NCBI RefSeq assembly: GCF_006716085.1
Contig: NZ_VFON01000001.1
Coordinates: forward strand, 806,001-870,000
DNA: 64,000 bases
Direction: 5' to 3'
DNA from: Leucobacter komagatae
GTDB taxonomy: Bacteria > Actinomycetota > Actinomycetes > Actinomycetales > Microbacteriaceae
A program made the translations under genes and the position numbers. Of this stretch, positions 2,586 to 28,319 are shown piece after piece. The notes under the pieces are model-generated. The model was given only the letters and a program-made list of their open reading frames with translations. It had not been told where the DNA came from and did no database searches. Positions within the stretch are counted from its first letter, which is position 1; each line of letters begins with the position of its first letter.

Positions 2586-3356
2586 CTAGACGGGTACGCC
2601 ACGATTCGTGACCGGCAGCTGTTGCATGAGGCGGCCGTCCTGCTCGCGCCTGCGGCACTGTTCAACAAGCGGGAGAGCCAGCTCGGGGTCCTTGCGGAAC
2701 TGCTCGAACTCGTCGCGGTTGAGGGCGTAGTACTCCTCGTAGTCGACGAGGCCCGTCGACACCGGAATCGACAGGTAGCCGATGCCGAAGATGAGCTCCG
2801 CGCCCAGCGAGAAGCGGTGCTCCTGCGAGACGTAGATGTCCTCGAACTTCGTCTCCGGCTCGTCGTCCTCGATCCTCGCCGAGTAGTCGGGGTCGAGGAA
2901 GTGGGCGAGCTGCTGTCGTTCCCTGTCGCCGAGCTCTTCGCTCACCCCGACCACTATGCGCGCCGCCCAAGCCGGCTCGTCGCGGTCGAACCTCGGCGCA
3001 GGAGCTACGTCGTCGTCGGGCTCGCCGCTCACCGCGACTGTTATAGGCTCCCGAGCTGCATCGTCGTCGTTGGGCTCGCCGCTCCAGAGGTTTCTTGTTG
3101 CGTTGGGCACACCCCAGGACCGCCACTCGAACCCGAGTCGCCTTGCGAATGGGTCCACTACTAGCGCCACTGTGTTGTCATCGAGCTGCGTGCGCGATGC
3201 GAGAGCGAACACTGCCAAACCCAGGAGCGAAGTGAAGCTCCCCATGGTCATTCGCTCGGCAGTCGTGGTGGACTGTGGCAGCTTCGCCCGAACATCCTTT
3301 TCGAGACCGCGAACTGCAGACTCTATGGCCGCGTAGTGCGATGCAGACCGAACCAT
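2586..3356 (-). CDS. Hypothetical protein
   Basis: This 256-residue protein of unrecognised family starts at the ATG at 3356; a TTG seven codons upstream (3377) is an alternative and neither has a clear ribosome binding site. One hydrophobic helix follows residue 35 (FTSLLGLAVFALAS). The middle is rich in acidic residues and contains two similar short stretches (SGEPNDDDAAREPITVAVSG, then SGEPDDDVAP). The C-terminal half looks globular with many Tyr and Phe residues. It faces the resolvase operon and is divergent from the integrase. A GTTGCA/TGCAAC inverted repeat overlaps its upstream edge. Confidence 0.55.
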   Translation of the reverse strand: MVRSASHYAAIESAVRGLEKDVRAKLPQSTTTAERMTMGSFTSLLGLAVFALASRTQLDDNTVALVVDPFARRLGFEWRSWGVPNATRNLWSGEPNDDDAAREPITVAVSGEPDDDVAPAPRFDRDEPAWAARIVVGVSEELGDRERQQLAHFLDPDYSARIEDDEPETKFEDIYVSQEHRFSLGAELIFGIGYLSIPVSTGLVDYEEYYALNRDEFEQFRKDPELALPLVEQCRRREQDGRLMQQLPVTNRGVPV

Positions 3357-3361
3357 CGAAT

Positions 3362-3506
3362 GTTGCAGTGAATGCAACTGTCTATGGTTGCAAACGACGT
3401 CTATTTGTCCAACTCAATGGCGAAGCCCTCCGATCATAACAGCGTGATCTCGCGGAAGTTTGGATTTGGGTTGACATAGTGATGCACCCCTCCGTACATT
3501 GTTGCA
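3362..3506. repeat. GTTGCA motif cluster at the recombinase module edge
   Basis: GTTGCA occurs at 3362-3367, inverted at 3373-3378, again at 3387-3392 and again at 3501-3506, where it overlaps the integrase start. The surrounding 130 bp are AT-rich and noncoding. Possible binding sites for the integrase or the HTH protein; the function is inferred. Confidence 0.4.
3471..3500 (+). promoter_or_regulatory. Promoter of the recombinase trio
   Basis: TTGACA (3471-3476) is followed after 18 bp by TACATT (3495-3500). The start point would fall near 3507, so the ATG at 3511 would have almost no leader. Confidence 0.55.
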
Positions 3507-3510
3507 TCTA

Positions 3511-4629
3511 ATGAAAGATTATGGCGCTTCTCCATCCACGCTTCGACTGATTACTTCGGCGTCGAACGTCACTTTGGTGAACCCCGAGCAACAGATCTTC
3601 AGCGCGATGGTCGACGGGTGGCGAAATCAGCAGCTATCGCGGGGACTTCGCGAGCAGACCATCCGCAATCGTGTCTCCACGGTGACGCGCTTCGCGGTTT
3701 TCGTGGACAAGCCGCCGTGGAAGTGGACGGTCGCAGATGTCGACGAGTTCACGGTCGAGGCGGCGACCCCGATCAGGTCGCTGTCGACGCTGCGCCATCA
3801 CCATGGGGCTATCAGGGGATTCTGCGACTACCTCACGAACCCGTTGTATGACTGGATGGAGATCTGCCATCGGGAATTCGGTGATTTTCCGTCCCAAGTG
3901 TGTCTGCCGTGGAACACGGTGGCTCACCGGTTCGAATTCGAGGGAGATGGAAAACGCCGACCGTTCTCCTATGCCGAGGTGGAGCGCCTGTTCGACACAG
4001 CTGACGCTCGCGTTGAATTGCTAGTCAGTTCCAGGAGGAAGGGGGCACTAGGTGCGCTGCGGGACGCGCAGCTACTGAAGACCGTGTACGCGTTCGGGTT
4101 GCGCCGCACGGAAGCTGTGATGCTCGACACCGTTGACCTGCACCACAACGCCAAGATGCGCCAGTGGGGACGATACGGCTCTATCCACGTGCGGTGGGCG
4201 AAGGCGGCGGGTGGCGGCTCGCCTCGGCGGCGCACCGTGCTGCTGGTGCCAGAGTTTGACTGGAGGGTGGCCGGTATGCAGCAGTGGCTCGAACAGGCCA
4301 GGGAGCGTTTCGCGCCCGGAGACGACCTCGACGCGCTCTGGGTGACCGAGAGGCGCACACGTCTGTCCGCAGGGTATCTCGACCGGAGGTTCGCGGAGCT
4401 GCGGGACGAGGCCGGCCTGTCGAAGGATCTGACGCTGCACAGCCTCCGGCACTCCTATGTCACGCACCTGCTGGAGTTCGGGTACGCCGATCGATTCGTC
4501 CAGGAACAAGTCGGACACATGCACGCGTCGACTACCTCGATCTACGCCTCTGTCAGCTCGGACTACAAGAACCGAGTGCTCGCGGAAGCGCTGAAAGCCC
4601 TCATCGAAGGAGAAGCTGATGACCGTTGA
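3511..4629 (+). CDS. Tyrosine recombinase/integrase (TnpA-like)
   Basis: This 372-residue site-specific recombinase has a core-binding N-terminal domain (about 20-125) and a complete catalytic domain. The expected residues are all present: R198 (GLRRTE), K231, H310 and R313 (HSLRHS), H336 (GHMHAS) and nucleophile Y345. The ATG at 3511 is chosen because the promoter would initiate at about 3507; TTG codons at 3499 and 3502 are alternatives. The stop overlaps the next gene by 11 bp, and a third recombinase-like gene follows. Size and company resemble Tn554 TnpA. It probably moves the adjacent metal-resistance cargo (inference). Confidence 0.93.
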   Translation: MKDYGASPSTLRLITSASNVTLVNPEQQIFSAMVDGWRNQQLSRGLREQTIRNRVSTVTRFAVFVDKPPWKWTVADVDEFTVEAATPIRSLSTLRHHHGAIRGFCDYLTNPLYDWMEICHREFGDFPSQVCLPWNTVAHRFEFEGDGKRRPFSYAEVERLFDTADARVELLVSSRRKGALGALRDAQLLKTVYAFGLRRTEAVMLDTVDLHHNAKMRQWGRYGSIHVRWAKAAGGGSPRRRTVLLVPEFDWRVAGMQQWLEQARERFAPGDDLDALWVTERRTRLSAGYLDRRFAELRDEAGLSKDLTLHSLRHSYVTHLLEFGYADRFVQEQVGHMHASTTSIYASVSSDYKNRVLAEALKALIEGEADDR

Positions 4630-4954
4630 GCTCGACACCGGATGGAACCTGCGCAGCCTGATGGCATCGCGCGGGATCTTCCAGACCTCCAAGCTAAAGC
4701 CCCTACTCGAGGAGCGCGGCATCGACCTGTCCCGGGAGCAGGTGTATCGGCTGGTGACGCAGCAGCCGCAGCGGGTGCGTCTCGACGTGCTGGCAGCGTT
4801 GTGCGATGCGCTGGAGTGCTCACTCGACGACCTGGTGACGATCACTCGTCGGGAGGCCTCGGCCCCGGTGGCCGTCGGTGAGGAGGCGACGCGCGGGTCG
4901 ATCGGTGATCTTCGTCCCGTTCGTGCAACGATCCGTCGTCCGCGTACGAAGTAG
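4619..4954 (+). CDS. Small Cro/XRE-type HTH protein of the recombinase trio
   Basis: This 111-residue protein starts with AAGGAG seven bases before its ATG. Residues about 10-75 form a Cro/C1-type helix-turn-helix (LKPLLEERGIDLSREQVYRL, then DVLAALCDALECSLDDLV). The C-terminal 35 residues are basic and probably unstructured. It lies between the two recombinase genes and overlaps the first. In Tn554 a 125-residue TnpC accompanies TnpA and TnpB; this protein has comparable size, but homology to TnpC is not claimed. It may set integration directionality or repress the operon (inference). Confidence 0.75.
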   Translation: MTVELDTGWNLRSLMASRGIFQTSKLKPLLEERGIDLSREQVYRLVTQQPQRVRLDVLAALCDALECSLDDLVTITRREASAPVAVGEEATRGSIGDLRPVRATIRRPRTK

Positions 4955-4959
4955 CCACG

Positions 4960-6897
4960 GTGGCGAAGCCTCCGCAACAGCCGCGAGTCGCGGAAGTCGT
5001 CGACCTCGTGATGCCTCTCGTCCCCGAGATCTCGCCCGATCGTCTCGCTGAGATCGTGCATTCGGTCGCGCCGGTGCCGCTGACGCAGCGGCTTCTTGAG
5101 CTCGCGCTGATCAAACAGACCGGCGTCCTCGAGGGGCGGCATGCGAATGTTCCGGTAACTGTCCAAGATTTGGCCCGCGCGCTGGTCGTCGAAGGAACAA
5201 GCAGGGTTGTGCTGCCGACGTGCGAGTCATGCGGCCGAGCTGTCCGTCTGCCACACAAGACGCCAAGCTGCGGCAGGCATTGCTCGCGCTGCGAGCGGAA
5301 CGCCAGGTCGGTAGCCTGCGCGACCTGCGGACGGGTCAGGCCAGTGCAGCGCACCATCGAAGGGGAACGGTACTGCCGCGAATGCTGGCGCACCGATCCC
5401 CGATCATTCGATCGCTGCTCCCGGTGCGGTCAGCACGCGACCATCGCCGTCCGTCGGCCCGAACTGGTCTGTCTGCGCTGCTACACAGCGCCGATCAAAA
5501 CCTGCGGGCTCTGCGGAGAGCCCGGTCGTGTGGCCTCCCACCTCGACGGGCGACGGATATGCGCGCGCTGCTACTACGCGATGCGTAGACCGCAGCCCTG
5601 CCCTGAGTGCGGGCGCAGGGTCTTTCTCACCGGGTTCATGAACGGTCAGAGGGCCTGTGCCAAATGCACGGGTGCTCCGGTGACGATGGCTTGTCCGGGT
5701 TGCGGTTCGATCGAGGAGATCCGCAAACATCACCTCTGCGTCGAGTGCCGTCGGCCTGTCGCGATCCAGCAGCTACTCGCCGACGATGCGGGCGAGATCC
5801 GCGCAGACCTTCACCCTCTTGCGGACTACCTGCTGACGCATCACAGCAACGCGGTGTCGCTCGAACGCTGGTTGCATAAGAGCAAGTGTGCACTGGTGCT
5901 CCGCGAGCTCGCGGACGGAACTTTGCCGCTTGCCGCCGAGGCGATTATCGCCCGAGCTCAATCGGGGCAGTCCGTGGCATTTCTCCTCTCGCTTCTGGTC
6001 CGCTCAGGAGTGCTGCCGGAGCTCGACGTCGAAGGCACGCGATTCAACCACTGGCTCAATGGCTGGCTCAACGATATCGACCATCCCGAGGACCGGCTGA
6101 TCCTGCGCCGCTACTGCGCCTGGGAGCTCCTACGATCGGCTCGGGTGTCCAGCCTTACCTCAGGCTTCCAAAGGCAACGGGCCTTTCTGAAATACTGTGC
6201 TGCGCTCCTTGAGGAGATCCGGTCACAGCAGGAGACGCTGGCGACTTTCCCACAACGCCGTCTGGACGCATATCTGACCGATTCGCCGAGCCAGCGTGAC
6301 GCGCTGGCACCATTCACCCGTTGGCTGCGCCGGCACCGATTGAGCAACCTCCGAGTCGAGTTCCGAGTCAATCGCCTCGAAGGGCGAGGCTATGCCGCTG
6401 ACCACCGATGGCAGATGGCCCGCAAGTTCCTGTCCGATGCCGACATGGACCCGAAGACCCGGGCGGCGGGTCTCCTCGTGCTGCTCTACGGCATCCAGCT
6501 GACCCGCATCGTCACGATCACCCGGGCACAGGTCGATACGAGCTCGCGGCCCGTGACACTCACCGTCGGGGCCGAGCCGATCGAACTCCCCGAGATCCTC
6601 GGCGACGCCATCGTCGAGCTCGTCGATGCCGCAAAGCGCCATCCTGAAGGGTGGTTGTTCCCCGGCAGGAACCCGGGCCGTCACCTCACCCCGGGGCCGC
6701 TCAGCCGTCGCCTTCGCACCGAAGGTCTGCTTGCTGGGAGCGCCCGCACGACAGCGCTCATCGAGCTCACCCGGCAACTGCATCCCCGGATCGTCTCGGA
6801 TCTCCTCGGCATCACAACGGCGTCCGCCGCTTCATGGTCACGTCTCGCCGGCGGAGAATGGTCCGATTACCCGACGCTCCGCTCCACCCACGCCTGA
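4960..6897 (+). CDS. Zinc-ribbon, degenerate tyrosine recombinase-like protein (TnpB-like)
   Basis: This 645-residue protein starts at GTG, 5 bp after the HTH gene. Residues 88-263 contain twelve CxxC motifs (first CESC, last CVEC), enough for six zinc ribbons. Residues about 300-645 follow a tyrosine-recombinase layout with an N-terminal helical domain and a core. The catalytic features look lost: the usual GLR box reads YGIQLTRI, the HxxR box is replaced by RTTALIELTRQLHPRI, and only a late tyrosine (GEWSDY) remains. Similar proteins in Actinobacteria travel with an integrase and an HTH gene. A structural or target-choosing partner of the active integrase is likely (inference). Confidence 0.75.
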   Translation: MAKPPQQPRVAEVVDLVMPLVPEISPDRLAEIVHSVAPVPLTQRLLELALIKQTGVLEGRHANVPVTVQDLARALVVEGTSRVVLPTCESCGRAVRLPHKTPSCGRHCSRCERNARSVACATCGRVRPVQRTIEGERYCRECWRTDPRSFDRCSRCGQHATIAVRRPELVCLRCYTAPIKTCGLCGEPGRVASHLDGRRICARCYYAMRRPQPCPECGRRVFLTGFMNGQRACAKCTGAPVTMACPGCGSIEEIRKHHLCVECRRPVAIQQLLADDAGEIRADLHPLADYLLTHHSNAVSLERWLHKSKCALVLRELADGTLPLAAEAIIARAQSGQSVAFLLSLLVRSGVLPELDVEGTRFNHWLNGWLNDIDHPEDRLILRRYCAWELLRSARVSSLTSGFQRQRAFLKYCAALLEEIRSQQETLATFPQRRLDAYLTDSPSQRDALAPFTRWLRRHRLSNLRVEFRVNRLEGRGYAADHRWQMARKFLSDADMDPKTRAAGLLVLLYGIQLTRIVTITRAQVDTSSRPVTLTVGAEPIELPEILGDAIVELVDAAKRHPEGWLFPGRNPGRHLTPGPLSRRLRTEGLLAGSARTTALIELTRQLHPRIVSDLLGITTASAASWSRLAGGEWSDYPTLRSTHA

Positions 6898-6904
6898 TCG
6901 AGCA

Positions 6905-7216
6905 TCAGCCGTCCGAGCCCGGGACGGAAATCGCTTCGTGCAGCTGCTCGACAGTCGGAGACCCCGCTAACCCGGCAGGGGTACGGAACACCCGGCAGGC
7001 AAGCCCGACGGGGGCGTGCTCATCGGCGAAGGGATCGACGCCGTCGACGAGGACGGTCGGTGACCCGTGGAACCCGAGGCGCTCGGCTTCCTCGGCGGTC
7101 TCGACCAGCTGCCGCGTGACGCGGATATCTGATCGGCCATCGAGCAGCTCAACAAGCCTGCCGTCGAGTATCTCCCAATTCGGGCAGCCGTCGAAGTACT
7201 GCAGGGTGATCTCCAT
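6905..7216 (-). CDS. Thioredoxin-fold protein of metal-resistance operon
   Basis: This 103-residue cytosolic protein has a thioredoxin-like layout: beta strand MEITLQYFDGC followed by PNW, a long helix, then a loop with a proline before the strand TVLVDGVDP. The active site has a single cysteine (CPNW), not CxxC, so classical disulfide exchange is unlikely. Such proteins are often annotated near alkylmercury lyase or thioredoxin in metal operons. It is the last gene of the cmtR operon, 11 bp after lspA. Its 3' end lies 7 bp from that of the zinc-ribbon gene. A metal-thiol handling role is inferred. Confidence 0.6.
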   Translation of the reverse strand: MEITLQYFDGCPNWEILDGRLVELLDGRSDIRVTRQLVETAEEAERLGFHGSPTVLVDGVDPFADEHAPVGLACRVFRTPAGLAGSPTVEQLHEAISVPGSDG

Positions 7217-7227
7217 AGTTGGTCCTC

Positions 7228-7752
7228 TCAGTTCTCGGTGCCGCGGATCATCAGAAGCGCTCCGGCGATCGCGGCGGTGACGATCACGATGTCGGCGACG
7301 TTCCCGATGAACCAGTCACCGTAGGCGAGGAAATCGACGACGTGCCCCCGAGCGAATCCTGGTTGGCGGAGAAGCCGGTCACTGGCGTGCGTGGCTGCGG
7401 CCCCACCGAGCGCACCGATCACGACCGCCCACCCAGGGCGTCGGACCCGGAACGCGAACACGATCGCGGTCACCGTGGCCGCGACGGCGATGAGAGCGAA
7501 CACCCAGGTGGAGCCCTCACCGAAGGAGAACGCCGCCCCAGGATTGTACGCGAGCTGCAGGCCCAGCAGGTCGCCGATCAGCGGGATGCGCTCGTGCTCC
7601 GACAGAGTGGCCTCGGCCCATGCCTTCGTCCCCTGATCGATGAAGACGACGACCACGGTGATCAGGAGTGCCCAGGCAGTGAACCGCCAGCGCCCCCTCT
7701 GCGGCCGCTCTTCCGACGCCGACTCAACGTCGGCGTTTGTGTCCGGGGTCAT
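7228..7752 (-). CDS. lspA: Lipoprotein signal peptidase (signal peptidase II)
   Basis: This 174-residue membrane aspartic peptidase cleaves signal peptides of prolipoproteins. After a 20-residue polar head there are four membrane helices. Family boxes are visible: DQGTKAW, YNPGAAF, and the catalytic aspartates in SDRLLR and GNVADIVI. The GGAxGN box is altered to GGAAATHASDR. The ATG overlaps the cadD stop (ATGA). An lspA copy inside metal operons is known from lead resistance (PbrC in Cupriavidus), so this is probably an operon-specific copy rather than the housekeeping gene. Confidence 0.88.
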   Translation of the reverse strand: MTPDTNADVESASEERPQRGRWRFTAWALLITVVVVFIDQGTKAWAEATLSEHERIPLIGDLLGLQLAYNPGAAFSFGEGSTWVFALIAVAATVTAIVFAFRVRRPGWAVVIGALGGAAATHASDRLLRQPGFARGHVVDFLAYGDWFIGNVADIVIVTAAIAGALLMIRGTEN

Positions 7753-8354
7753 GCGAGGACCTCGAAGAGACGGACGATCACGCCGGACTCGATCAGGATG
7801 AACAGGCCCAGGCCGATGAACACGACCGGGACGAGCCAGTGCTCGACGCGCTCGAGCGTCTCTGTGACCGCCTTGTGCGTGCCGATCAGTCGCCCGGCAG
7901 CACACCAGACGGCGACGAGAATCAGGAACACAACGATCATGATCACGACGTCGCCGGGAGTGCTGGTGCGGAAGATCGGCGTGTACAGGGAGATGTTGTC
8001 CGCACCGTTGGCGATCGTGATCCCCGCGACGCCCCACATGCCTACTGCGGTGATCTTGTCGTCGTCATCATCGTCGCCGTTGCGGCGCAGGCCGCGCACG
8101 AGGGTCCAGATGCCGATGCCGAGCGGGATGAGACCGAGGAAGCCCACCCATTCGTCCGGGACGATCGTGAGACCGAGCGCGGCGATCACGCTGATCACGA
8201 CGAGGGTGATGAACCCGAGATACTGGCCAGCAACGATCTGCCACGGACGCGGCTTCCCCCGGCTGGAGGCAAGGAACAGCACCGTGAGCACGACGATGTC
8301 GTCGATGTTGGTCGCAGCGAACAGGCCGATCGCTGAGCCGATGGTCGCGAGCAT
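7749..8354 (-). CDS. cadD: CadD family cadmium resistance transporter
   Basis: This 201-residue polytopic membrane protein begins with the signature TNIDDIVVLTVLFL and has a second one, ANGADNISLYTPIF, typical of CadD/LysE-like exporters. About five or six membrane helices are visible, with an acidic linker (DDDDDD) near residue 95. The family confers cadmium tolerance in staphylococci. Its start abuts the ATPase stop and its stop overlaps lspA, so it belongs to the cmtR operon. Confidence 0.88.
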   Translation of the reverse strand: MLATIGSAIGLFAATNIDDIVVLTVLFLASSRGKPRPWQIVAGQYLGFITLVVISVIAALGLTIVPDEWVGFLGLIPLGIGIWTLVRGLRRNGDDDDDDKITAVGMWGVAGITIANGADNISLYTPIFRTSTPGDVVIMIVVFLILVAVWCAAGRLIGTHKAVTETLERVEHWLVPVVFIGLGLFILIESGVIVRLFEVLA

Positions 8355-10264
8355 CAGCTCGCCAACCGTGGCGTGCGGGCGGCGCGCAGGCCGTTGAGGA
8401 TCACGATGACCTCCGCGACCTCGTGGACCAGGACGACAGCCGCGAGCCCCAGCACACCGAACAGCGCCAGCGGGAGCAGTGCGGTGATGATCAGCAGCGA
8501 CAGGATGATGTTCTGGTTGATGATCCGTCTACCTCGCCGGGCGTGGTCGAATGCCCGTGGGATGAGGCGCAGATCATGTCCGGTGAAGGCCACGTCGGCG
8601 GATTCGATCGCTGCGTCGGAGCCGGTCGCGCCCATCGCGATGCCGATGTCTGCGCCAGCGAGGGCCGGGGCATCGTTGATGCCGTCGCCGATCATCGCGA
8701 CAGGTCCCGTCTTCGACAGTTCTGCGATCGCGGTCGCCTTGTCCTCCGGGCGCAGCTCCGCCCGCACGTCTCTGATCCCGGCCTGCGCCGCCAGTGCACG
8801 AGCGGTGCGGGCGTTGTCGCCGGTGAGCATCGTCACCCCGACGCCCTGGCCGGTGAGTGTTCGGACTACCTCGGGGACTTCAGGTCGAAGTTCGTCGCGG
8901 ACGCCGATCGCGGCGACCGGTGACCCGTCGCGGTGCACGATGACGACGGTCATGCCCTGTTCTTCCAACTTCGCGACCCGGTCCACGAGGTCGCCGGCGT
9001 CCAGCCAGCGGGGGCTGCCGACGGTGATTCTCGATCCGTCGACGCTGCCGTCGATGCCGTGCCCGGCCTGTTCGGTCACATCTGCGGCTGCCGGAGTCCC
9101 CGGGGCCGCGGCAGTGATAGCTGAGGCGAGGGGATGTGTGCTGTGCTGCTCCAACGCGGCCGCCCAGGCCAGAGCCTGCGTCTCGGTCACGCCGTTCGCA
9201 GTGATCACGGCGGTGACCGCCGGTTCGTTGCGGGTGAGGGTGCCGGTCTTGTCGACGGCGACGTGGCGGACCGTGCCGAAGCGCTCGAAGACGGCACCGG
9301 ACTTGATGATCACGCCAAACTTGCTCGCTGCACCGATCGCCGCGACGACAGTCAGCGGCACCGAGATCGCCAGCGCACACGGAGAAGCGGCGACCAGCAC
9401 GACGAGCGCGCGGGTGATCCACACCTCCGGGTCGCCCAGCAGCGACCCGACGATCGCGACGAGCGCAGCGAGGATCAGAACGCCGGGCACGAGCGGGCGG
9501 GCGATCCTGTCCGCCAGACGAGCACGTTCGCCCTTCTCCGTCTGCGCCTTCTCCACCAGCTCCACGATCGTCGTGAGCGAGTTATCGGTGCCCGCTGCCG
9601 TCGCCTCGACCTCCAGGACACCGGCACTGTTGATCGCACCGGCCGACACCGCATCCCCGGGCTCGACCTCGACGGGGATCGACTCCCCGGTGATCGCCGA
9701 GGTATCCAGGCTGGAGCGGCCAGAACGCACGACCCCATCAGTCGCGATCCGCTCACCCGGGCGGACCACCATGACCTGGCCGACCGTCAACTCTCGCGCC
9801 TGCACCTGCGAGGAGACGCCGCCCTGCAGCACGGTCGCTGTCTCCGGCACGAGCTTCAGCAGTGCCCGCAGCCCGCCGCGGGCGCGGTCCATCGCCTTGT
9901 CCTCAAGCGCCTCAGCGATCGAGTACAAGAACGCCAGAGCTGCAGCCTCCTCCACGTAGCCGAGGACGACTGCACCGATCGCGCTGATCGTCATCAGCAG
10001 CCCGATGCCGAGCTTGCCCTTGAACAGCTTCCGAATCGCGCCCGGCGTGAACGTCGACGCACCCAGCAACAGGCCGGCCCAGAACAACACCAGCGCCGGG
10101 ATCTCGAGGCCGGACCATTCGAGAATCTGACCGGCGAGGAAGGCAACGCCGGAGAAGACCGGCACCATGATCCCGCGATCCCTCCACCAGGGCCGCTCAG
10201 CCTCTTCATGTTCTTCGCCCGACGTGGTTTCAGGCTCGGGTTCGCAGCCGCACGCCGCGCTCAC
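8354..10264 (-). CDS. Heavy-metal P1B-type ATPase (CtpG/CadA-like)
   Basis: This 636-residue ATP-driven metal exporter starts at the GTG at 10264, which overlaps the cmtR stop (GTGA); longer starts run into cmtR. Motifs in order: actuator TGES, membrane-metal motif SPC, phosphorylation site DKTGTLT, nucleotide-binding HP (STHPLAS), hinge GDGINDAP, and a final helix with HEVAEV. There is no N-terminal HMA domain, only a short cysteine-bearing tail (ACGCEPE). SPC plus an HE motif in the last helix fits P1B-4 pumps. Mycobacterium tuberculosis ctpG is also controlled by CmtR, so cadmium or lead is the likely substrate (inference from context). Confidence 0.9.
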   Translation of the reverse strand: MSAACGCEPEPETTSGEEHEEAERPWWRDRGIMVPVFSGVAFLAGQILEWSGLEIPALVLFWAGLLLGASTFTPGAIRKLFKGKLGIGLLMTISAIGAVVLGYVEEAAALAFLYSIAEALEDKAMDRARGGLRALLKLVPETATVLQGGVSSQVQARELTVGQVMVVRPGERIATDGVVRSGRSSLDTSAITGESIPVEVEPGDAVSAGAINSAGVLEVEATAAGTDNSLTTIVELVEKAQTEKGERARLADRIARPLVPGVLILAALVAIVGSLLGDPEVWITRALVVLVAASPCALAISVPLTVVAAIGAASKFGVIIKSGAVFERFGTVRHVAVDKTGTLTRNEPAVTAVITANGVTETQALAWAAALEQHSTHPLASAITAAAPGTPAAADVTEQAGHGIDGSVDGSRITVGSPRWLDAGDLVDRVAKLEEQGMTVVIVHRDGSPVAAIGVRDELRPEVPEVVRTLTGQGVGVTMLTGDNARTARALAAQAGIRDVRAELRPEDKATAIAELSKTGPVAMIGDGINDAPALAGADIGIAMGATGSDAAIESADVAFTGHDLRLIPRAFDHARRGRRIINQNIILSLLIITALLPLALFGVLGLAAVVLVHEVAEVIVILNGLRAARTPRLAS

Positions 10265-10620
10265 GCGTCCGCCCCTGTACCGCAGCAGCCCGGCACCGTG
10301 CAAGACGAGTCCACACACGGCGCGTGCTCATCGACAGCCAACGTCACATCCACCAGCGCGACGAGCGCCGCCGCGAGGTGCGGATCAGCGATCTCATAGC
10401 GGGTCTGGCGGCCCTCAGGCTCAGCGACCACGATCCCGCAGTCCCGCAGGCAAGTCAGGTGGTTCGACACGTTCGAGCGCGTCAACTCCAGCTCACGCGA
10501 AAGGACGGCCGGGTAGCTCGGCCCACCGAGCAACGTCATCAGGATCCGGGAGCGCGTCGGATCCGCCATGGCCCGGCCGAGCCGGTTCATGACGTCGAGG
10601 CGCGAAGCAATAGTCAGCAT
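10261..10620 (-). CDS. cmtR: CmtR-type ArsR family Cd/Pb-sensing repressor
   Basis: This 119-residue winged-helix repressor has the DNA-reading helix LTRSNVSNHL. C57 and C61 (LTCLRDC) and C102 (APCVD) sit at the numbers established for Cd/Pb ligands of M. tuberculosis CmtR. The extra C-terminal tail adds CTVPGCC. The N-terminal Cys4 of the mycobacterial protein is isoleucine here. It is the first gene of the metal operon, with a -10-like TATAGT six bases before the ATG, so the mRNA is probably leaderless. Metal binding should release it and induce the ATPase, cadD, lspA and the thioredoxin-fold gene. Confidence 0.9.
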   Translation of the reverse strand: MLTIASRLDVMNRLGRAMADPTRSRILMTLLGGPSYPAVLSRELELTRSNVSNHLTCLRDCGIVVAEPEGRQTRYEIADPHLAAALVALVDVTLAVDEHAPCVDSSCTVPGCCGTGADA

Positions 10621-10622
10621 GC

Positions 10623-10658
10623 AATAACTATACAGCCCACACTGACCTATTGGTTATT
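10623..10658 (-). promoter_or_regulatory. cmtR promoter and candidate operator
   Basis: Reading leftwards, TATAGT (10632-10627) precedes the cmtR ATG by six bases. AATAAC (10623-10628) and GTTATT (10653-10658) form an inverted repeat spanning the promoter and the last codons of the merR gene. An ArsR-type operator is plausible; no good -35 is visible. Confidence 0.4.
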
Positions 10659-11111
10659 CGATCGATGTTCTCGTGTGGGGTTTCCCAGTGCGAAGGCTCT
10701 GAAGGCGCACTCCGAGCGGCATCGTTGGTCGCTGTCAGGGCAGCCGTCCACGTGGACTTGCGCCGCGCGCAGTTGGTCCTGCAAGTTGCCCAGGATGCGA
10801 AGCTGCCGTTCAACGGCGGCGAGCTGATCAGCCAACAGCGGCTGCATCGCAGCCTTCACCCCGGTGCAGGTACCGTCGTCGGCGAGTTCAAGGAGTCGGC
10901 GGATCTCGGGTAGCTCGAGGCCGAGGCGCTTCGCAGAGGCAATGAAGTCGAGCCGCTCGAGGTGGTTCTCGTCAAAGTCGCGGTACCCGTTCGGGCTCCG
11001 GCGCGCGGACAGGATCCCGAGGCGCTCGTAGTAGCGCAGCGTGCTCGCCGGCACCCCGCTGCGCTCGGCAACCTCGGAGATCTTCACGCTTCGACCATAT
11101 ACCTCGCTCAC
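10647..11111 (-). CDS. MerR family metal-responsive regulator
   Basis: This 154-residue regulator has the MerR winged helix (VKISEVAERSGVPASTLRYY), a dimerisation coiled coil (about 90-125) and cysteines where metal sensors carry them: DDGTC, then CPDSDQRC and SEC. The start is given as the GTG at 11111; a GTG at 11087 would give the standard MerR N-terminus and is equally plausible. It is divergent from the transporter at 11190, whose promoter overlaps a near-perfect palindrome. It likely activates that promoter by DNA distortion. The effector is unknown. Confidence 0.85.
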   Translation of the reverse strand: MSEVYGRSVKISEVAERSGVPASTLRYYERLGILSARRSPNGYRDFDENHLERLDFIASAKRLGLELPEIRRLLELADDGTCTGVKAAMQPLLADQLAAVERQLRILGNLQDQLRAAQVHVDGCPDSDQRCRSECAFRAFALGNPTREHRSNNQ

Positions 11112-11143
11112 TTGACCTTCAACCCGGGTTCAAGGTCTAACAT
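11112..11143 (+). promoter_or_regulatory. MerR-type promoter with over-long spacer
   Basis: TTGACC (11112-11117) and TAACAT (11138-11143) are 20 bp apart, longer than the usual 17 bp. The spacer holds a palindrome at 11115-11136, ACCTT-AACCCGGGTT-AAGGT, with one mismatched pair. This is the classic layout of promoters activated by MerR regulators. Confidence 0.8.
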
Positions 11144-11189
11144 CTTTCGAGGCGACGTCGGTCGCCCTTGAGTACGAGGCTGGAGAGCG

Positions 11190-12158
11190 ATGCGGAAGAC
11201 CATGGAATGGATGGAGCGGCAACAGGTCGCGCTCTTCGTCGCGGGGCTGGCAATCGGGGCCATCATCGGACTGGCCTGGCCCGCGGTCGCCCACCCCGCC
11301 GAGCTCGCGATCCAGCCCATGCTGGCGCTATTGCTCTACGCCACGTTCCTCGGCATCCCCTTCGGCAGGATCGGGCAAGCATTTCGGGACTGGCGGTTCC
11401 TCGCCACCCTCCTCGTCGTCAACTTCGCCCTGGTGCCCGCCATCGCGTGGCTGCTGTCGAGGATCGTCGCCCACGACCAGGTGCTCCTCGTCGGCGTGCT
11501 GTTCGTGCTGCTGACCCCGTGCATCGACTATGTCATCGTCTTCGCCGGACTCGCTGGCGGCGATGAGGAGAAGCTCCTGGCGGCTACCCCGTTGCTGATG
11601 CTCACCCAGATGGTCCTGCTGCCGCTGTACCTCTGGCTATTCGTCGGGGCGGAGTTCGTCGAATCTGTGGAGTTCGCCCCCTTCGTCGAGGCCTTCGTCC
11701 TCATCATCGCCGTGCCGCTGGTCGCTGCCGCGCTCACGCAGCTCGCCGCCGCCCGCTGGCGCATCGGGAAAATGGTCGAGCGCATCGCTTTGGGAGCGAT
11801 GGTGCCTCTGATGGTCGCCACGCTCGCGGTCGTCGTCTCCTCGCAGATCGCTGGCGTGAGTGCGGAGTTTGGTTCGCTCCTGCTCGCGGTGCCGGTGTAC
11901 GTCCTGTTCGCGGCCGTGATGGTGCCAGTGGGAATACTCGCGGGCAGAGTCGCCGGCCTTGACGCACCGGGCAGACGGGCGATCGTGTTCAGCGGCGCGA
12001 CACGGAACTCACTCGTCGTACTGCCATTGGTACTCGCCCTGCCCGCAGCATTCGACCTCGCGCCGCTCGTCGTCGTCACACAGACCCTGGTCGAGCTTGT
12101 CGCCATGGTGGTCTTCGTTCGGTTAGTGCCGAAGGTCGTTCGCACGACCCTAAACTGA
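11190..12158 (+). CDS. ACR3/bile-acid symporter superfamily transporter
   Basis: This 322-residue membrane protein has about ten hydrophobic helices and the ATG has GGAGA seven bases upstream. ACR3-like landmarks are FVLLTPCIDYVI in the fourth helix region (with the conserved cysteine) and SGATRNSLVVLPL near residue 270. ACR3 proteins export arsenite, but this sequence diverges from standard ACR3 motifs, so the substrate could be another oxyanion. It is the only gene behind the MerR promoter. No arsR or arsC gene lies alongside. Confidence 0.72.
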   Translation: MRKTMEWMERQQVALFVAGLAIGAIIGLAWPAVAHPAELAIQPMLALLLYATFLGIPFGRIGQAFRDWRFLATLLVVNFALVPAIAWLLSRIVAHDQVLLVGVLFVLLTPCIDYVIVFAGLAGGDEEKLLAATPLLMLTQMVLLPLYLWLFVGAEFVESVEFAPFVEAFVLIIAVPLVAAALTQLAAARWRIGKMVERIALGAMVPLMVATLAVVVSSQIAGVSAEFGSLLLAVPVYVLFAAVMVPVGILAGRVAGLDAPGRRAIVFSGATRNSLVVLPLVLALPAAFDLAPLVVVTQTLVELVAMVVFVRLVPKVVRTTLN

Positions 12159-12186
12159 CGAATACGCGACTCTGCAACAATCGGCA

Positions 12187-12345
12187 CTACCAGTAAGGAA
12201 CGTCCAAGATCCGAGACCCCGCATCGCGAACTTCCTGTCTGCGCGTCGCTGTGACGACCGGCTCGATGTCAGAGCTACTCAGACTCTGCGCCGCGTCGAT
12301 GAAGCGGCGCACCTGTTCTTCATTGCCTCCGAGCTTGTTGGTCAT
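12187..12345 (-). CDS. Small hypothetical protein (52 aa)
   Basis: An ATG at 12345 opens a 52-codon frame, MTNKLGGNEEQVRRFIDAAQ and onwards, ending DVPYW. Its composition is protein-like and amphipathic with many charged residues. There is no strong ribosome binding site. It fills the otherwise empty space after the transporter. It could be an antitoxin-like or remnant peptide; no family is recognised. Confidence 0.35.
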   Translation of the reverse strand: MTNKLGGNEEQVRRFIDAAQSLSSSDIEPVVTATRRQEVRDAGSRILDVPYW

Positions 12346-26945: not shown

Positions 26946-28319
26946 TCAAAGGATTGCCAGCATCGCGGCGCCCTTCAGATCTCGTTCTCGGACCTCGTCC
27001 GCGGGATCCGAATCGATCGTGATCCCACCCCCCGCGCCGACGAGCGCCTGACGCTCCTGATCCGACTGCTCGCGTCCCCGGAGCAGCCCCGCGCCCCGGA
27101 GCTCGATGCCGCGAATCATCATCGCGAGCTCTGCCGCGCCGGAGTCGCCGAGCCAGCCGAAGCAGCCCGAGTACAGCCCCCGCGGGCCCACCTCCAGACC
27201 GGCGAGAATCTCGACCGCGCTCCGCTTCGGGGCACCCGTCATCGACCCGCCCGGGAAACAGGCGGCGATCGCGTCGACGGCGTCCATGCCGTCGGCAAGG
27301 GCGCCCGACACCGTGCTCACGAGCTGGTGCACACGAGGGTGCGATTCGACCGCGAGAAAGCGCTCGACGCGCACGCTGCCCGGCTCGCACACGCGCGCAA
27401 GGTCGTTGCGCATGAGGTCGACGATCATGAGGTTCTCGGCGCGTTCCTTCGGGTCAGAGCCAAGCTCCTCAGCAAGGGCTCGGTCAAGCGCGGCATCTGC
27501 CCCGCGCGGTCTGGTCCCTTTGATCGGGTGTGTCGACACCCTTCCCGCTCTCACGCTCAAAAACCGCTCGGGGCTCGCGCTCACGAGCGCCCGGTCGCCG
27601 GTCACGATGACGCCGCCACGGAGGGCGCCGCCACGCAACTGCAGGTAGAGGTCGAGCGGGGCGGCGGTCGTCGCCCCCTCCGCGGTGTCGGTGAGACACA
27701 GCACATAGGCGTCGCCGTTTCGGATAGCGCTCCGGCATTGTTCGACCTGTGCGTCATAGTCCTGCCGGCGCCAGCGGGGGGCATTGTGGTTGGCGCTCCG
27801 GGGTTCCTCGGGCCCGCGGTCTGTGCTCGCGGCGCCCCGCAACACCAGATCCCGGAGGCGCGCGGCCACCGACGGGTCGCCGCTGAATCGCGCCTCGCCA
27901 GTGCCATGGTGGATCGCCAGAACGGCCTCAGCCCGCAGCGCAAAAGCGGGAGCAGCACTGTCAGGCTGCGGCTCAACGCCCAGCAGCGCGACGCCGAACT
28001 CGTAGCCGAGGGCGACGACCCAGCCGCTTCCGAACCCGACGGGTTCCGCATCGCTGTGCGATCCTGCGCCAGTACCGGAGCGCGGCCCGCCGTGTGCCCG
28101 GAGCCCTTCGAGGAAGGCGCGCTCGTCCCCGCGCGCGGCCTCACGCACCTCGCTCGCAATGCCAAGGTAGCTGACTCGGGGCTCCCCCGCCGCAGCAGCC
28201 TCGCCGTCGAGCCAGAACCACGCTGATCCCGCTGTCGACAGCGCCGCTGCCGCGCCGGCAGCCGTCAGCTGGCCAGCAAGCGCCGCCGCCTCAGAGACTC
28301 CCCCGTGTTCCACCCTCAC
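26946..28319 (-). CDS. pabB: Aminodeoxychorismate synthase component I (PabB)
   Basis: This 457-residue chorismate-binding enzyme takes part in p-aminobenzoate and hence folate synthesis. Landmarks are HPIKGTRPRG (lysine-containing PIKGT, typical of PabB rather than TrpE PIAGT), ENLMIVDLMRNDLARV, FPGGSMTGAPKRSAVEIL and YSGCFGWL. The N-terminal about 170 residues are divergent. It probably needs a glutamine amidotransferase (PabA), not seen here. It is divergent from pabC across only 22 bp, so both transcripts may start at or near the initiation codon. Confidence 0.9.
   Translation of the reverse strand: MRVEHGGVSEAAALAGQLTAAGAAAALSTAGSAWFWLDGEAAAAGEPRVSYLGIASEVREAARGDERAFLEGLRAHGGPRSGTGAGSHSDAEPVGFGSGWVVALGYEFGVALLGVEPQPDSAAPAFALRAEAVLAIHHGTGEARFSGDPSVAARLRDLVLRGAASTDRGPEEPRSANHNAPRWRRQDYDAQVEQCRSAIRNGDAYVLCLTDTAEGATTAAPLDLYLQLRGGALRGGVIVTGDRALVSASPERFLSVRAGRVSTHPIKGTRPRGADAALDRALAEELGSDPKERAENLMIVDLMRNDLARVCEPGSVRVERFLAVESHPRVHQLVSTVSGALADGMDAVDAIAACFPGGSMTGAPKRSAVEILAGLEVGPRGLYSGCFGWLGDSGAAELAMMIRGIELRGAGLLRGREQSDQERQALVGAGGGITIDSDPADEVRERDLKGAAMLAIL

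Follow-up and report, generated by a model that had tools for sequence, protein, structure and literature searches.

The stretch analysed here, hereafter the window, comprises 64,000 nucleotides of the Leucobacter komagatae genome (3.75 Mb; contig NZ_VFON01000001.1, positions 806,001 to 870,000). It contains a mobile element of 8,845 base pairs (bp), the left part of which carries three open reading frames that lie head to tail on the plus strand and encode proteins of 372, 111 and 645 amino acids (aa). These are an active-type tyrosine recombinase (YRec), a small helix-turn-helix (HTH) protein and a long TnsF-like protein. The element probably picks its landing site with the last of these, a zinc-rich, recombinase-like protein that has lost its cutting residues.

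3511–4629, plus strand: YRec, active-type tyrosine recombinase, 372 aa (longest frame starts at 3499; Phage_integrase, E = 1.3e-19)
4619–4954, plus strand: HTH_26 (Cro/C1-type) protein, 111 aa (Pfam HTH_26, E = 9e-16)
4960–6897, plus strand: TnsF-like protein, 645 aa, with a 12-CxxC zinc-ribbon array and a predicted, dead tyrosine-recombinase fold (about 375–643)

The trio of integrase, HTH and zinc-ribbon proteins that had been proposed from the letters of this DNA (the original prediction) is real, as indicated by the frames, the Pfam matches and a gene order that is kept in the related loci with all three genes; the grouping is therefore not due to chance. YRec has an intact catalytic set (GLR...HSLRH...GH...Y), and the HTH protein is the best conserved member of the trio in most loci. 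The interval first proposed, 3511–6897, holds the core trio but not the whole element, which runs from 3351 to 12195. Empty sites in two loci from genomes of the same genus (L045 and L046) read GCAGACCG|AGGAACG, whereas the window reads GCAGACCG|AACC...CCAGTA|AGGAACG. The comparison with the empty sites, with ends computed, therefore bounds the element to a single base (one A at the boundary being ambiguous), and no base is duplicated. Once joined, the window flanks give one uninterrupted minus-strand frame, a 304-aa gene that is intact at 99–100% in two genomes and at 83% in a third (54 genomes of the same genus, own included). By DNA comparison, a block starting at about 3350 is common to the window and five of five close relatives.

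3351–12195, plus strand: whole element, 8,845 bp, zero target duplication
3351–3368, plus strand: left end AACCATCGAATGTTGCAG, kept in relatives
12159–12195, plus strand: right end; its final hexamer CCAGTA (12190–12195) is the constant core
3345–3350, plus strand: hexamer AGACCG next to the left junction, derived from the target and also found in the empty site
2589–3356, minus strand: C-terminal portion of the 304-aa target gene that the insertion splits; this half has no Pfam match
12193–12345, minus strand: N-terminal part of the same gene (joined-frame reconstruction)
3363–3377, plus strand: palindrome TTGCAGTGAATGCAA, putative operator of the HTH protein, at offset 13 in the left ends examined
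3502–3516, plus strand: second palindrome TTGCATCTAATGAAA, over the YRec start codon, putative operator

Homologous trios have ends and targets in common, which was one of the checks that the original prediction had put forward. Among the relatives compared, the left end usually reads AACC[ACG]TCG..TGTTGCAG and the right end ...CAACAATCGG...CTACCAGTA. All 21 left ends examined have a TTGCA-N5-TGCAA palindrome 13 bp from the end, and all 21 have another some 150 bp inwards (≤2 mismatches); the two copies listed above are the only places in the window that match the palindrome at ≤1 mismatch, and the HTH protein probably binds both. Elements of the family have evidently moved in the past, to judge from two pairs of sequences. 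The 7.4-kilobase (kb) elements of an uncultured Microbacterium and of Pseudoclavibacter helvolus are 99.69% identical end to end at unrelated sites, and those of Microbacterium nanhaiense (in umuC) and M. ihumii (beside the right end of another element) are 99.64% identical over 9.1 kb.

The junctions show which bases belong to the element. A search with the right arm that placed no constraint on the following six bases gave 30 distinct matches; two of them, in L023 and L109, were set aside, as the bases ahead of the arm did not resemble an element end. The right-end hexamer is CCAGTA in 26 of the remaining 28, TCAGTA in one and CAAGTA in one. By contrast, 17 different hexamers occur among the 22 left ends, and CCAGTA is one of these, at the tandem site. 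The left hexamer is therefore that of the target and the right hexamer that of the element. In SE elements, and in the Tn554-related ones described alongside them, the donor hexamer is instead taken to the right junction; for this family, the constancy of the right hexamer rules out the SE donor-footprint rule. The same result bears on the idea of an SE- or GInt-like element, which would leave by a strand-biased copy-out circle and use a catalytically dead recombinase-fold partner (Tfp or GinC). SE and GInt elements do have a recombinase-fold protein without catalytic residues together with a small partner, in SEs a 6-bp spacer separates imperfect inverted repeats, and umuC—a target in the present family—is also a proposed insertion site of tmexCD elements with two integrases. 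Nevertheless, SEs put donor bases at attR, which is constant here, and SE and GInt elements have two active recombinases, compared with the one active-type recombinase found among the trio and seven cargo frames scanned. On the attR bases and the recombinase count, we regard this explanation as unlikely.

Across 67 aligned homologues, each of the twelve CxxC pairs of the 645-aa protein, correctly counted at the outset, is present in 66 or in all 67. The supposed loss of the GLR and HxxR boxes is borne out in part: the box I Arg is present in 2 of the 67 homologues and the box II His in none, but the HxxR Arg is kept in all 67 and is the sole survivor of the catalytic positions examined. The position of the box III His is I, L or M, and a Trp lies near the tyrosine position, in every homologue. 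The canonical catalytic set is thus found in 0 of 67, which agrees with the predicted pairing of an inactive, zinc-rich recombinase-fold protein with an active one. Pfam returned weak zinc-ribbon matches alone for this protein (best E = 5.7e-05), and a sequence search of solved structures gave weak matches, mostly to zinc proteins (best E = 0.021). In the predicted structure, which had been suggested as a check, the C-terminal half has a tyrosine-recombinase fold; the pLDDT was 64 (poor) with 9 close sequences and 84.8 with 67. Fold matches of the model include the phage repressor phi3T SroF; a TnsF chain was not among them, an absence that is uninformative on TnsF membership. Compared with two Tn7-type TnsF proteins, called Tn6022-type from their gene neighbours, the 645-aa protein gives a BLASTP E value of 6e-16 and an hhalign value of 98.4, with homology that spans the zinc array and the CB region. 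These alignments identify it as homologous to the target selector TnsF. We also sought an active TnsF in proteobacterial plasmid records; both records inspected were Tn7-like by their neighbour genes.

These features also decide the case of Tn554, on whose TnpA, TnpC and TnpB the three proteins had first been mapped, with the gene order shuffled. The protein sizes are similar, a distant relative of the element adjoins a Tn554-like tnpB and DUF6262 pair, and the window element has zero target duplication, as reported for Tn554. However, the small protein is an HTH_26 protein and not a member of DUF6262, which we take to be the TnpC family. The HTH and 645-aa proteins have no match (E ≤ 0.01) to the TnpC and TnpB of that Tn554-like element, the one compared, and the long protein is instead a TnsF homologue whose family of 67 has no member with the canonical catalytic set. 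Finally, the right hexamer is constant rather than donor-derived. The HTH_26 partner, the dead long protein and the constant hexamer rule out membership of Tn554, and we give a rearranged transposon of that family next to no credence.

Several relatives are inserted inside umuC, and the window copy lies elsewhere. The umuC-linked loci comprise G016 (two copies, 12,630 and 6,412 bp), G031 (one copy, 22,258 bp), G011 (decayed), L089, L091, L092, L104 and L114, with right ends in G021 and G029. The G016 and G031 copies all split umuC, between ..SARVM (..SARIA in G031) and EIIGRYSAWQEVYSIDES.., where an intact umuC at 96% reads GTGATG|GAGATC. A CpaF-like ATPase gene, read on the opposite strand, is the target in G238 and L088 (restored frames), with similar flanks in G128, L093 and L106, and a LivH-like gene is the target in G436; both names were given by eye without a Pfam scan. 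The 16 joined sites fall in umuC, the CpaF-like gene, the LivH-like gene and one further gene, with L095, L096 and L105 unassigned. We recognised comM at 0 of the 16 sites, non-umuC genes having been named by eye with no search aimed at comM.

3311–3328, plus strand: candidate target-recognition motif GAACTGCAGACTCTATGG, 40–23 bp left of the junction

Unrelated targets have a common motif about 24–44 bp left of the junction, which in umuC corresponds to the codons for NYELYG. The best 18-bp window (−44 to −27) has 13.5 bits, whereas 2,000 permutations gave 8.8 on average and 12.1 at most; the statistic covers 8 of 9 unrelated targets (one was dropped for its short flank), and the permutation was free to use any 18-bp window in 70 bp, the pattern having first been noticed by eye. 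We also ranked each site among 3,914 with a profile that covers the 44 bp to the left and was built solely from the other target groups. The true site ranked 1–4 for seven umuC sites, 7–33 for three CpaF-like sites, 7 for G436, 8 for L095 and 83 for L096. With bases −20 to +12 alone, three umuC sites still ranked first and the other non-tandem sites did worse, and a target consensus close to the junction was rejected as weaker for most sites than the left 44 bp. An invariant C at +6, seen at seven sites, was not upheld by other right ends read by eye.

The position of the motif, beyond the 15-bp core arm, speaks against an integrative element in which YRec alone picks the target while the 645-aa protein governs directionality or has an architectural role. 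Some recombinase-fold proteins simply bind DNA, the SroF repressor matched above being an example; yet the 645-aa protein is homologous to TnsF, a tested target selector, and we consider that YRec is improbable as the sole chooser of the site.

The reading that we favour, with fair confidence, is a site-specific transposon of the kind represented by Tsy (PMC10293859) and XER modules (PMC6305408), in which a dead TnsF-like target reader works with one active YRec. The left end of such an element would supply YRec, the HTH protein and the target selector, with swappable cargo to the right. The TnsF-like protein would read the motif through its zinc-ribbon array and helical CB-like domains and bring YRec, the sole active recombinase, to the site. 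YRec would join the element ends into a circle with the predicted junction CAACAATCGGCACTA-CCAGTA-AACCATCGAATGTTG, that is, a 6-bp core flanked by 15-bp arms that are imperfect inverted repeats of each other, and would then exchange strands between circle and target. The left end would retain the target hexamer and the right end CCAGTA, so that the proposed mechanism entails neither duplication nor donor carry-over. The HTH protein probably sits on both left-end palindromes, which would couple control of YRec expression to assembly at the left end.

Several points weigh against this proposal. The strongest is that catalysis by both YRec and TnsF is essential in ZooTsy (PMC10293859), so a dead TnsF would need different chemistry or a helper. 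The circle and the transposition of these elements are predicted, not directly observed. The catalytic positions of the 645-aa family were picked by eye from motifs and not by superposition; comparing the profile of this family with that of its own YRec family yielded no support (probability 0.1); and the Pfam integrase domain, detected in 1 of 10 proteins scanned (E = 0.026; 2 of the 10 were Tn7-type TnsF), was not detected in the window protein. The target of the window element itself ranked 150 of 3,914 by the motif profile, and the tandem insertion site, which lacks the motif, ranked 2,029. Finally, of 29 named genome loci, the right end was found in 21 (≤4 mismatches) and the left end in 14 (≤3 mismatches, in a search 1.0–2.1 kb upstream of the gene for the 645-aa protein); another 3 loci begin beyond the point where the left end would lie, and in 12 it was not found in the stretch searched. 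In eight of these 12 there is little or no match to the recombinase, which points to probable decay or truncation of many copies.

More tentatively, at somewhat less than even odds, we suggest a branch that is large in Actinobacteria and present in Variovorax, in which all cutting falls to one tyrosine recombinase, while the partner that was once catalytic now serves solely to read DNA. In such a branch, the 12-CxxC array would recognise a motif at a distance of two to four helical turns and thereby choose unrelated genes (umuC, CpaF-like), and the polarity of the reaction would keep one hexamer permanently at the right end, so that no target base is added or lost. The branch might represent the missing step from an active Tsy TnsF to the truncated TnsF borrowed by Tn7-like transposons. 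The element is precisely bounded, evidently mobile and has known empty sites. It therefore lets one ask whether one active recombinase and a dead target reader are enough, which the Tsy experiments would not predict, and the common motif in unrelated target genes makes the specificity of the reader directly testable.

The cargo of the window element includes the metal-resistance genes that had been predicted (Pfam cadmium transporter, P-type ATPase, ArsR, MerR and SBF-type transporter), and the element carries metal resistance, to cadmium and presumably arsenic, among actinobacteria.

6905–7216, minus strand: small cargo protein, no Pfam match
7228–7785, minus strand: signal peptidase II (LspA; PF01252, E = 9.2e-24)
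7749–8354, minus strand: cadmium resistance transporter (PF03596, E = 3.4e-39)
8354–10318, minus strand: P-type ATPase, cadmium type by context (PF00122/PF00702)
10261–10620, minus strand: ArsR-family regulator (PF01022)
10647–11111, minus strand: MerR-family regulator (PF13411)
11190–12158, plus strand: SBF-family transporter (PF01758), presumably an ACR3-like arsenite exporter

The signal peptidase II gene travels alongside the cadmium genes; lspA-type genes lie next to lead/cadmium ATPases in pbr operons. The cargo region varies among copies, which are 6.4 to 22.3 kb in length. The cadmium stretch (about 8375–10645, around 2.3 kb) is common to the window and three of five relatives, a fourth having 90 bp of it where its contig ends, and G031 has the trio in common with the window but not the cadmium genes. 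No GIY-YIG match was found among the cargo frames scanned. Outside the element, to its left, a serine resolvase is encoded at 651–1244 (PF00239, E = 2.4e-38). Rfam at gathering scores reported nothing in the window, including at 27978–28079, where ARAGORN calls a tRNA-Asp; this call is probably false, because at 102 bases it is unusually long, overlaps long open frames and has no Rfam report.

As to spread, matches occur in 12 of 100 genomes (E ≤ 0.001) and 12 of 398 family genomes (E ≤ 1e-60), own included in both, and in 206 of 72,556 plasmid records (E ≤ 1e-20). Seven distant loci were searched for the close group's terminal pattern, without a match. In one distant group, which includes the Mycolicibacterium aubagnense plasmids L002 and L118, the right end reads ...CACCATTA; the trio there has MFS-transporter/MerR cargo (L002, 4830–14974) and in L002 lies between an upstream tnpA-like recombinase gene and a long recombinase–DUF6262 pair, as if inserted into a Tn554-like operon. 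Several loci hold more than one trio or element. A second, divergent trio (44%, 50% and 25% identity) adjoins the first in opposite orientation in G016 (L024, 11316–15311), two trios occur in a row in L099, and L105 is a tandem in which the left end abuts the right end CTACCAGTA of another element. In plasmid pA8H1 (L122, 1365–18238), the trio follows umuD, a umuC fragment (residues 2–57) lies at 9383–9550, and a second recombinase–HTH pair lies farther on in opposite orientation.

The distinct class that the original prediction had proposed holds in so far as the element is a site-specific tyrosine-recombinase transposon, but the class is not wholly new, because Tsy (PMC10293859) and the XER modules (PMC6305408) are known kin. 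In the main texts of these two papers, as far as drawn on here, there is no dead TnsF beside YRec, nor these ends or the umuC codon site, and for XER modules the ends, empty sites, dead active site and TnsF link are not described; among the matches listed in the literature on TnsF, Tsy, XER modules and umuC, no other title concerned such elements. Tsy and the window element share the gene order YRec, small HTH protein and TnsF-like protein with cargo downstream, a long protein made of a zinc-finger N terminus and a recombinase domain, and insertion inside a conserved gene with the attachment site upstream of the insertion; the letters CCAGTN|AA of the circle junction printed for a single Tsy element (PMC10293859) recur in the junction predicted for the window family. 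They differ in the TnsF active site, which is intact and essential in ZooTsy and lost here, and in the target, which is comM in Tsy and umuC, CpaF-like and other genes here. With the canonical catalytic set absent from all 67 homologues, we do not file the window element as Tsy in the strict sense; some Tsy relatives also lack GIY-YIG (PMC10293859). The XER modules of Antarctic Arthrobacter plasmids have a homologous XerD–XRE–XerC trio (42%, 47% and 26% identity for pA8H1), variable cargo as in the window family and an insertion in umuDC, but the pA8H1 module lies between umuD and umuC (PMC6305408), whereas several relatives of the window element, though not the window copy, lie at about codon 85 of umuC. 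TnsF of Tn6022-type Tn7-like transposons has a homologous zinc array and CB region, an inactive recombinase domain and a role as target selector; its partners are TniQ and a DDE transposase rather than YRec, and its CAT domain is partial, without helix K, whereas a full recombinase fold is predicted for the window protein. Actinobacterial Tn554-related elements have a short and a long recombinase, often with a small protein, in mostly actinobacterial hosts, as here, but their long protein keeps the C-terminal catalytic motif and their small protein is related to TnpC (PMC3414803). Pseudomonas ILEs in rulB are likewise recombinase-led, have variable cargo and split a umuC-type gene, but they have three recombinases, a tetR homologue and a 3-bp direct repeat (PMC4542609). 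Together with the XER modules, the window family represents a further kind of element that lands in umuC-type polymerase genes, next to the Pseudomonas ILEs and the tmexCD elements.

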